DNA from: Bacillus sp. REN16
Lineage (GTDB): Bacteria; Bacillota; Bacilli; Bacillales; Bacillaceae_L
DNA length: 64,000 bases
Reading direction: 5' to 3'
Assembly: GCF_020731355.1 (NCBI RefSeq)
Contig: NZ_JAJFZK010000001.1
Span: 62,001 to 126,000, forward strand
Part shown: positions 35,768-36,879 of the stretch, piece by piece
How positions within the stretch are numbered: position 1 is the stretch's first letter
Layout: every line of letters begins with the position of its first letter
Notes under the pieces: model-generated
The model's input: only the letters and a program-made list of their open reading frames with translations
What the model was told of the DNA's origin: nothing
Databases searched by the model: none
Program-made: the position numbers and the translations under genes

Positions 35768-35989
35768 TTACGAATAATAATCTTGGTAGCCCTCATTCAA
35801 TGTTTCCTTATTTTTTTTACCATTTGTTTGATTAACCGATGCTTGAATTTCACCTTCCATATAGGAATCACTTACTTGTTCATGTGTAGTAGCAAGTCCT
35901 GAGGATAATTCATCGTTTTTTTTGTAATCTTCTGGTTGGTAATGTCTTGCAGCTAATCCTTCGGTACTGTTTTGCAATTTCTCTTTCAT
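35768..35989 (-). CDS. YozQ-like protein (DUF4025)
   Basis: ATG 35989 is chosen with AGGAGGAATTGCG upstream; 73 residues. It is hydrophilic and acidic, with STEGLAARHYQPEDYKKNDELSS in the N-terminal part that matches the DUF4025/YozQ family of Bacilli. These proteins have no known function; several small hydrophilic proteins of this type are sporulation-associated. Confidence 0.68.
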   Translation of the reverse strand: MKEKLQNSTEGLAARHYQPEDYKKNDELSSGLATTHEQVSDSYMEGEIQASVNQTNGKKNKETLNEGYQDYYS

Positions 35990-36084: not shown

Positions 36085-36116
36085 AAAAACAAGAGACACC
36101 CATTAAGGGTGCCCCT
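36085..36116 (-). terminator. Terminator of the SASP gene
   Basis: On the minus strand GGCACCC-TTAAT-GGGTGTC is followed by TCTTGTTTTTT. Confidence 0.75.
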
Positions 36117-36139
36117 TTAGCCAAAATATTTAATTGTTA

Positions 36140-36349
36140 TTAACCTTGACGACCACCCATAGATTGTTGAGCGAAAGATACTAAACGCTTTGTAATTTCT
36201 CCACCAACTGATCCGTTTGCGCGAGATGTAGTGTCAGCACCTAAGTTAACACCAAATTCTTGAGCAATTTCATACTTCATTTGGTCGATAGCTTGTTCTG
36301 CACCTGGTACTAGTAATTGGTTACTGTTGTTGCTATTGTTGTTTGCCAT
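36140..36349 (-). CDS. sspB: Alpha/beta-type small acid-soluble spore protein
   Basis: 69 residues; AAGGAGATGAAGG lies upstream of the ATG. Both conserved SASP blocks are present: the germination protease site region [20 protein letters not shown] and [16 protein letters not shown]. The protein coats and protects spore DNA and is degraded at germination. The position next to the yheE-yheD-yheC group matches B. subtilis sspB. A SigG promoter lies about 150 nt upstream, and a tRNA-like structured element occupies the leader between them. Confidence 0.95.
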
Positions 36350-36380
36350 TTTTCCTTCATCTCCTTAAACTGATTTTTTT

Positions 36381-36440
36381 TGGTGGGTTACTCCGGAATT
36401 GCACCGGATATAAGGGTTTCCTTAGCCTCTAGGCTAACCC
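36381..36440 (-). ncRNA. tRNA-like cloverleaf element with encoded CCA in the SASP leader
   Basis: Read on the minus strand (element positions 1-60): GGGTTA (1-6) pairs with TAACCC (51-56), followed by A57 and CCA (58-60). Three hairpins lie inside: GCC/GGC with a 4-nt loop (7-16), TAAGG/CCTTA with a 4-nt loop (17-30), and TCCGG/CCGGA with a 7-nt loop TGCAATT (33-49), the size of a T-arm. The second arm is too small to present an anticodon, so it cannot decode. It lies 31 nt upstream of the sspB ATG and downstream of the SigG promoter. Whether it is a leader structure, a decayed tRNA or a processed RNA is unknown. Confidence 0.55.
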
Positions 36441-36502
36441 GTTAATTTTAAAAGTTAATGCGGTGTCGCTGGTGAGTTGTGTGTTGCTGTGTTTGTACTA
36501 AG

Positions 36503-36532
36503 TATTATGTGACGAAGTGAGTATTATATTCG
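36503..36532 (-). promoter_or_regulatory. SigG promoter of the SASP gene
   Basis: Minus strand: CGAATA (-35, 36532-36527), 17-bp spacer, CATAATA (-10, 36509-36503). This fits the SigG consensus (GHATR and CATHHTA) fully. It predicts a leader of about 147 nt. Confidence 0.7.
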
Positions 36533-36636: not shown

Positions 36637-36879
36637 ATGCCTATTTGTCCATTATGTAATGGCTTTAACAAAGTTAGCTTCTCATGTGCACAATGTGGAA
36701 ATTCCCTAGAGGATTCTGGACGTATTATTGATTACTTTGATGATTATAGTGCATACATGCAAATTGATGACATGAAAAAAATAGATGGCATCCAAACCAC
36801 CTTACAAAACAATGAATGTGGCCATCTCTTCTATTGTAGAAATTGCCATAACCAAGAGGTGAAGGTAATCAAGGAATAG
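36637..36879 (+). CDS. Small double-zinc-ribbon-like protein
   Basis: 80 residues; AGGAGAGAAG precedes the ATG. Cysteine pairs CPLC (4-7) and CAQC (17-20) form one zinc ribbon, and ECGHLFYCRNC (~61-71) a second metal-binding cluster; the middle is acidic (IIDYFDDYSAYMQIDDMKKI). It is cytoplasmic. The function is not recognised, but the fold suggests a metal-stabilised protein- or nucleic-acid-binding module. Confidence 0.65.
   Translation: MPICPLCNGFNKVSFSCAQCGNSLEDSGRIIDYFDDYSAYMQIDDMKKIDGIQTTLQNNECGHLFYCRNCHNQEVKVIKE

Follow-up and report, generated by a model that had tools for sequence, protein, structure and literature searches.

Why should the leader of a SASP mRNA carry what resembles a tRNA? 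In the window, by which we mean the whole 64,000-nt stretch of Bacillus sp. REN16 DNA that was analysed, a first-pass annotation described a 60-nt cloverleaf with an encoded CCA upstream of an sspB-type gene, and explained it as a decayed tRNA captured as leader, an RNase P/Z processing signal or a regulatory leader acting in the forespore. We asked whether this structure is maintained, which RNA it comes from and what it could do for the gene behind it.

A predicted cloverleaf between promoter and start codon

The features of this leader all lie on the minus strand. A SigG-type promoter (36503..36532), read directly as CGAATA (36532-36527), a 17-nt spacer and CATAATA (36509-36503), is found where it had been annotated, and is followed by a variable A/C-rich stretch (36441..36502) that is poorly conserved among congeners. 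The tRNA-Gln-like cloverleaf (36381..36440), assigned from its fold, its presence in 9/9 congeners and family covariation, opens with GGGTTA (36440-36435), which pairs with TAACCC (36390-36385) in a 6-bp acceptor, and ends in an encoded A-CCA (36381..36384) 3' of that stem. Between the acceptor strands the three hairpins do stand in cloverleaf order: a D-arm equivalent GCC-TAGA-GGC (36425..36434) of 3 bp with a short D-loop and no G18G19, an anticodon-arm equivalent TAAGG-AAAC-CCTTA (36411..36424), and a T-arm TCCGG-TGCAATT-CCGGA (36392..36408), the usual T-loop across elements being UGCAANU. Direct reading gives the third hairpin the T-arm dimensions claimed for it (5-bp stem, 7-nt loop), and both the sequence and the RNAfold structure bear out that the middle arm, with 5 bp and a 4-nt loop, has no anticodon loop. 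A 31-nt linker (36350..36380), in which we read a Shine-Dalgarno (SD) sequence AAGGAG (36366-36361), separates the ACCA from the ATG at 36349, as annotated. The gene itself (36140..36349; 69 aa) is of the alpha/beta SASP, sspB type (Pfam PF00269, E 4.9e-23) and has an intrinsic terminator-like site on its 3' side (36091..36117). A scan of the window's leader found no terminator between promoter and start codon.

RNAfold, run on the 60-mer, returns exactly the cloverleaf that had been drawn, at −21.5 kcal/mol (z −2.55; 3/200 shuffles equally stable). With context the element's z is only −1.34 (91 nt; 21/200 shuffles) or −1.53 (146 nt; 13/200), and the fold in the window is therefore weak evidence when taken alone. 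The window's element is also atypical: its first pair is a C-A mismatch, and one additional G separates the T-stem from the acceptor. The 6-bp closing stem of the first-pass annotation thus holds for this element and not for the family, in which a 7-bp acceptor followed by NCCA is mostly found. We considered a competing pairing in the window, GGGTT with AAACCC, and dropped it, since by eye it is not preserved in the middle arms of other genera. Neither ARAGORN nor Rfam reported a match in the window (no tRNA and no family, respectively), and ARAGORN called no tRNA at the leader elements of the subset of loci scanned.

The element precedes a SASP gene in many Bacillales genera

All nine genomes of the genus Fredinandcohnia have the element, with 53/60 of its columns invariant, despite divergence of the spacer just 5' of it. 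The third T-stem pair occurs within the genus as C-G, U-G or U-A; with three distinct sequences, covariation inside the genus was no better than in shuffles. A covariance model built from the nine genus sequences (R1) matched 15/17 genomes of the family (E<=0.05) and 45/396 of the order (E<=0.01), and 26 of 27 further R1 loci lie directly upstream of a SASP gene. The exception (L050:1501-1553, genome G015; 27.4 bits with R1) is a 53-nt weak relative with the same T-loop, placed between RNase P class-B RNA and small SRP RNA; no SASP gene was called there, the match could be chance, and L050 was excluded from the leader set and the element counts. A weak match in another genus, obtained in a DNA search with the window's element (L017), was also set aside: it had only the T-loop hairpin in common and is presumably an FMN-riboswitch sequence.

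A degenerate motif that holds no coding sequence, and fixes G55, A72 and C74, was scanned across a collection of 84,980 species. It returned 111 places, of which 108 precede a SASP start, two are cut by the end of the locus and one, in a Gammaproteobacteria MAG (L164), is due to chance. Among the carriers are the B. subtilis relatives B. halotolerans, B. mojavensis and B. inaquosorum, together with Anoxybacillus, Parageobacillus, Heyndrickxia, Niallia, Neobacillus, Cytobacillus, Rossellomorea, Lederbergia and others. One locus labelled Chryseobacterium (L194) has a Bacillaceae-type sspB leader and gene, and its assembly is probably mislabelled or contaminated.

We also used a finder that involves no covariance model and demands 6/6 acceptor pairs, four or more of the five T-stem pairs and a loop containing T[GT]C[AG]A. 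It detected an element in 157/182 distinct SASP leaders, which is not a prevalence because most loci were fetched for matching the element, and in 2/546 dinucleotide shuffles. Inspection of the 25 negative leaders by eye recovered nine further elements with a mismatch or U56 (L054, L106, L109, L117, L146, L268, L273, L280 and L281; U at position 56 in L268, L273 and L280), the other 16 being leaders of other SASP paralogues. The sspA-type paralogue leaders L240, L241, L248, L251 and L256 contain no tRNA-like element; they have a common stretch of their own (gtgttt..cacac-like, then tatactcacaaggaggtgaaa). Of the 143 distinct elements counted below, 77 came from the motif scan and 66 were not chosen by the motif.

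A second model, R2, built from 15 leaders only, matched 281/299 genomes of the order and 176/299 of the class at E<=0.01, figures that cannot be read as numbers of elements, since the matches include tRNA-Gln genes and probably also tRNA-Trp genes. A third model, R3, was applied at E<=2e-8, stricter than the tRNA-Gln scores observed, and its order survey is a lower bound: at least 89/299 genomes and 36/116 genera, with a single match per genome, at a threshold that loses true members (carriers G008, G011, G015 and G027 score negative). In a sample of the phylum R3 matched 2/299 genomes, both within the order.

In six genomes with 30 SASP-family genes between them, exactly one gene per genome has the element. 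In the B. subtilis-type genome G226 this is the sspB-like and not the sspA-like gene, judging by their proteins. A divergent zinc-ribbon-like ORF recurs upstream in 80/120 loci (a pattern match made without a control), which suggests that the element-bearing genes represent one orthologous locus. In the window this ORF encodes an 80-aa protein (36637-36879, divergent from the SASP gene; zf-CHY below its cut-off), and a DUF4025 protein gene (35768-35989; PF13217, E 5.9e-19) lies just 3' of the SASP gene.

Acceptor and T stems are maintained and the elbow appears altered

Covariation was tested on 85 distinct rows in an alignment fitted to R2. Here 91.2% of cells are paired compared with 81.4% in shuffles, 201 cells have changes on both sides (71.7 ± 7.2 in shuffles), the covariation score of 0.223 compares with 0.104, and none of the six slid structures performs as well. 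The number of pairs with a double change (11 vs 9.8 shuffled; 68/500) and the number of pair types (37 vs 35.0; 105/500) are not in excess in this alignment. Double changes occur in it at all six modelled middle-arm pairs and at three T-stem pairs. RNAalifold, given a structure-blind MAFFT alignment of 30 elements, finds both the acceptor (7 bp) and the T stem (5 bp) without help, plus one isolated pair, and kept double changes are seen at 7/12 of the acceptor and T-stem pairs; the D and middle arms, which vary in length, were not recovered from these 30 elements. The acceptor takes forms such as TGAGTTA/TAACTCA, TGGACCA/TGGTCCA and AGGGTTA/TAACCCT, one of its pairs is U-G in 16/85 distinct sequences, and in predicted leader ensembles a chosen acceptor pair exceeds 50% in only 106/143 cases.

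Several tRNA-like details recur across the family. U1-A72 is present in 124/143 elements (52/66 of those not motif-chosen), the T-stem is stacked directly on the acceptor in 127/143 (54/66), and NCCA follows a 7- or 6-bp acceptor in 134/143 (61/66), with A or G at position 73 in 119/121 elements that have both the 7-bp acceptor and NCCA. The region equivalent to D arm, anticodon arm and variable loop spans 17-98 nt over the 143 elements, and the middle arm is highly variable across genera in sequence, length and loop. Together these comparisons support computationally a tRNA-like cloverleaf under selection. Conservation and covariation, which the first-pass annotation had proposed to look for in orthologous leaders, are both found there, and its word "decayed" does not fit an element whose stems covary and whose position is held over many genera.

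In most elements the elbow appears to depart from that of tRNAs. In the 66 elements not chosen by the motif, position 55 is G in 52 and U in 14; the constancy of U54, C56 and A58 in the 143 elements follows from the finder, which demands T[GT]C[AG]A. A GG was parsed in the D-loop of 22/29 U55 copies and 17/120 G55 copies (Fisher p 2.7e-10, uncorrected for relatedness; 149/156 copies parsed, some plainly mis-parsed). It is as if the elbow had been re-engineered, the D-loop GG going with U55.

The nearest tRNA is tRNA-Gln

Model R2 also matches tRNA genes, and at the ten loci where ARAGORN made a tRNA call (L110-L114, L116, L119, L121, L123 and L125) the tRNA was tRNA-Gln(UUG) in 10/10 cases. 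Within tRNA clusters, tRNA-Gln scored 43-46 bits, one tRNA-Trp 33.8 and others below 23. We compared the acceptor and T stems of 127 elements with those of tRNAs and found 20.0-20.7 of 24 positions to be shared with a typical tRNA-Gln and 22.3 with the variant tRNA-Gln of L121, the next isoacceptor being tRNA-Trp at 15.7. Global alignment against 23 classes places 140/143 elements nearest to tRNA-Gln and the rest nearest to tRNA-Trp; against the 15 tRNAs of cluster L113 the corresponding figures are 138/143 and five, the compared tRNA loci having themselves been matches of the leader-built model. In L274 (family f44) the acceptor and T stems are identical to those of tRNA-Gln, a shortened D-loop keeps GGTA, the T-loop is UUCAAUU (UUCGAAU in tRNA-Gln) and the middle arm is wholly different.

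The idea of a tRNA captured as leader is therefore well supported, with tRNA-Gln as the nearest tRNA. The element apparently shares descent with tRNA-Gln, close mimicry being the alternative. Computation also supports the view that drift of the anticodon arm has left it unable to decode.

The element is nearly fixed relative to the start codon

Nucleotide 73 lies 28-42 nt from the ATG in 125/143 elements (sd 3.3). The distance from the −10 to the element ranges from 6 to 121 nt (5-95%: 22-66; sd 17.8, n=108), a spread that includes some false promoter matches, about 5% judging by shuffles. These promoters were found with a SigG-like pattern written from recall, present within 150 nt upstream of 108/143 elements and in 71/1430 shuffles. 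Since the element lies downstream of a SigG-like promoter it is expected in the forespore mRNA, and the first-pass suggestion of a regulatory leader acting in the forespore fits this distribution.

The finder placed its element 88-144 nt before the ATG in the remaining 18 leaders, and in 17 of them a second copy stands at 29-37 nt (L061, L067, L088, L102, L104, L129, L132, L138, L151, L156, L158, L165, L183, L195, L226, L235 and L271; Mesobacillus and Neobacillus are among the named carriers). In the eighteenth, L202, the spacing would be restored by use of an in-frame ATG that lies further upstream, at offset 39 past the motif. With these second copies included, and L202 as the exception, the leader has a copy ending 28-42 nt before the start codon for 142/143 elements. 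In the tandem leaders all 17 near copies have U55 and none has NCCA; NCCA is present in 15/17 of the distal copies. The position relative to the start codon and the CCA are thus separable. A tRNA-like structure stands about 35 nt before the start in nearly every leader, and the CCA is not needed for that place. A lower limit imposed by the 30S footprint, together with common ancestry, could account for part of this regularity.

A proposed role in translation initiation

The element probably serves to control either translation or processing of its message. Our preferred explanation, which we hold tentatively and at somewhat less than even odds, is that a tRNA-Gln sequence was domesticated in the leader of the sspB-type SASP mRNA, where it acts in cis at translation initiation. 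We favour it because the element is held at a near-constant distance from the AUG. The acceptor/T-arm half would contact the ribosome just 5' of the SD site, and this contact would raise initiation on a highly expressed message. Grafted cis-tRNAs and the liganded yjdF aptamer provide in-vitro precedents for such an effect: translation rose 2- to 6.3-fold when cis-tRNAs were placed 5' of an SD sequence, and the tRNA-like yjdF aptamer, once it holds an activating ligand, binds ribosomes (PMC9142559).

How would such an element differ from a regulatory switch? The predicted unpaired probability of the SD is 0.456 with the element and 0.439 with the element removed in silico (n=142), the element lowering accessibility in 15 and raising it in 32 of the 142 leaders. 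Duplexes between T-arm and SD (−6.79 kcal/mol) are no better than permuted ones (−6.57, sd 1.96), so that no preferential pairing is evident; on these two predictions we rejected SD sequestration. Attenuation was rejected since no terminator was found in the window's leader, and a T-box riboswitch was discarded in the absence of any Rfam T-box match in the window or at the scanned elements. No long purine-rich junction of the kind that forms the yjdF ligand site was seen in the element. Since neither SD sequestration, a terminator nor such a junction was found, the element looks like a constitutive module and not a switch.

Other observations fit translation initiation less well. No GG was parsed in the D-loop of most single elements, and this counts against it: a double mutation in yjdF equivalent to loss of the D-loop GG brought translation near background (PMC9142559). 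Retention of NCCA is unexplained by a role at the ribosome only, since changing ACCA to UAAU cost little translation (PMC9142559).

A fuller version of the preferred explanation, to which we give slightly less credence still, would accommodate the tandem leaders and the elbow. It describes a constitutive ribosome-recruiting module, derived from a tRNA-Gln gene in Bacillales, that sits some 35 nt ahead of the start codon in one major SASP gene. The module would have split in tandem leaders, where NCCA stays on the distal copy and a UUC T-loop of tRNA type marks the start-codon-proximal one; the elbow of single leaders would have re-evolved, from G18G19 with UUC to a different D-loop with UGC.

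The explanation ranked second, possible in our view though on the unlikely side, makes the element an RNase P processing site that gives the SASP mRNA a protective 5' end. A cut 5' of nt 1 would leave a 5'-monophosphate buried in the acceptor stem, and this buried end would shield the abundant message from 5'-dependent nucleases, namely RNase J1/Y. The encoded CCA would help RNase P and block RNase Z, and the frequency of NCCA among the elements is in keeping with this. The variable leader stretch 5' of the element would be trimmed, and the T-stem stacked on the acceptor has the predicted geometry of RNase P substrates. The tRNA elbow is the point from which the enzyme measures such geometry (PMC4919913), cleavage of a pseudoknot substrate by E. 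coli RNase P RNA requires an RCCA motif (PMC12710915), and other mRNAs are also processed by RNase P (PMC11143913). However, the elbow, which RNase P contacts, appears altered in most elements, a complete NCCA is missing from 9/143 elements and from all the gene-proximal copies of the 17 tandem leaders, and the window's own element has a 6-bp acceptor. Nor does processing predict a tight start-codon distance combined with a variable promoter distance. RNase P comes second in our ranking because it is the start codon, and not the 5' end, that the position of the element follows. Translation initiation and RNase P maturation could both be true, and tandem leaders may divide the two roles between their copies.

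We think it improbable that the element is a yjdF-like riboswitch or tRNA-type sensor, in which a ligand or a protein (GluRS, GatCAB or another tRNA-Gln binder) would stabilise or disrupt the cloverleaf and so switch translation. The prevalence of U1-A72 is suggestive in this respect, this pair being a bacterial tRNA-Gln identity element for GatCAB. However, the anticodon is lost, the CCA is not free, T-arm:SD pairing energies are no better than permuted and removal of the element hardly changes SD accessibility. Rfam, including yjdF (RF01764), gave no match at the element in 20 loci at the gathering score or in nine loci at E<=10. The precedent for a sensor is yjdF itself, a tRNA-Lys-like translational riboswitch (PMC9142559).

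Two further explanations are very hard to sustain. A functionless remnant, left upstream of ssp by a tRNA-Gln gene or an attachment site, would account for the resemblance to tRNA-Gln, and a pseudo-tRNA beside a genomic island in B. cereus (PMC3399842) can be counted for it, but compensatory changes, near-identity within the genus despite drift of the flanks, a nearly fixed position and tandem copies are all unexpected of a relic. A DNA-level element (a protein binding site or promoter part whose symmetry mimics RNA stems), for which proximity to the promoter speaks, is scarcely compatible with frequent G-U pairs, a tRNA-type T-loop and a site 6-121 nt downstream of the −10.

Implications

If the preferred explanation is right, the locus would provide an unusually clean case of RNA domestication with its intermediates still visible, L274 being tRNA-like and most others having a remodelled elbow. 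We know of no earlier natural cis-tRNA translation activator that is not a riboswitch, and the SASP element would be the first, serving mass production of SASPs in the forespore. It would give cis-tRNA activation, so far seen in vitro, a natural host that is genetically tractable, since close B. subtilis relatives have the element upstream of an sspB-type gene. Few spore proteins are as abundant as the alpha/beta and gamma SASPs, and in C. novyi three or more of the five top-ranking spore mRNAs by abundance encode SASPs (PMC7649253). Whether a tRNA-like fold can recruit ribosomes in cis, whether RNase P shapes spore mRNAs and what makes SASP mRNAs so plentiful in spores become testable questions, and RNA annotation gains an unlisted family. 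Our literature search found no paper on a structured SASP leader, older SASP work in subscription journals lying outside its coverage.

Comparison with known systems

Like the tRNA-Gln(UUG) of Bacilli, the SASP element has a 3-bp GCC/GGC D-stem and NCCA. Unlike it, the element has no anticodon loop, has mostly UGCAANU as T-loop, is embedded in an mRNA and receives no ARAGORN call.

RNase P has non-tRNA substrates in which, as in the SASP element, an acceptor/T stack sits within a longer RNA: tmRNA, plant viral 3' TLS, MALAT1/Men-beta and riboswitches, as named in PMC4919913 and PMC11143913. The SASP element differs in forming part of the 5' leader of a spore gene, and in being only a candidate for cleavage. 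The B. cereus tRNAOther is likewise a tRNA-like element inside a larger RNA in Bacillus; it has a Trp anticodon, however, is proposed to be part of a separate regulatory RNA and is found in some Bacilli (PMC3399842).

The artificial cis-tRNA leaders likewise place a tRNA in cis 5' of an SD sequence (PMC9142559). They are engineered, whereas the SASP element is natural, conserved and remodelled, with a proposed effect on translation. Closest is the yjdF riboswitch, also a tRNA-like cloverleaf 5' of the SD in a Firmicutes mRNA leader, which its authors judge to be related to tRNA-Lys and in which the loop equivalent to the anticodon loop is not essential (Trachman et al. 2022, PMC9142559). The SASP element differs from yjdF in having tRNA-Gln as its nearest tRNA and sspB as its gene, in the lack of an Rfam match at the loci tested, in T-arm:SD pairing that is not above permuted, and in having mostly kept NCCA and mostly lost the D-loop GG. 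The SASP element may still work like the ON state of yjdF.
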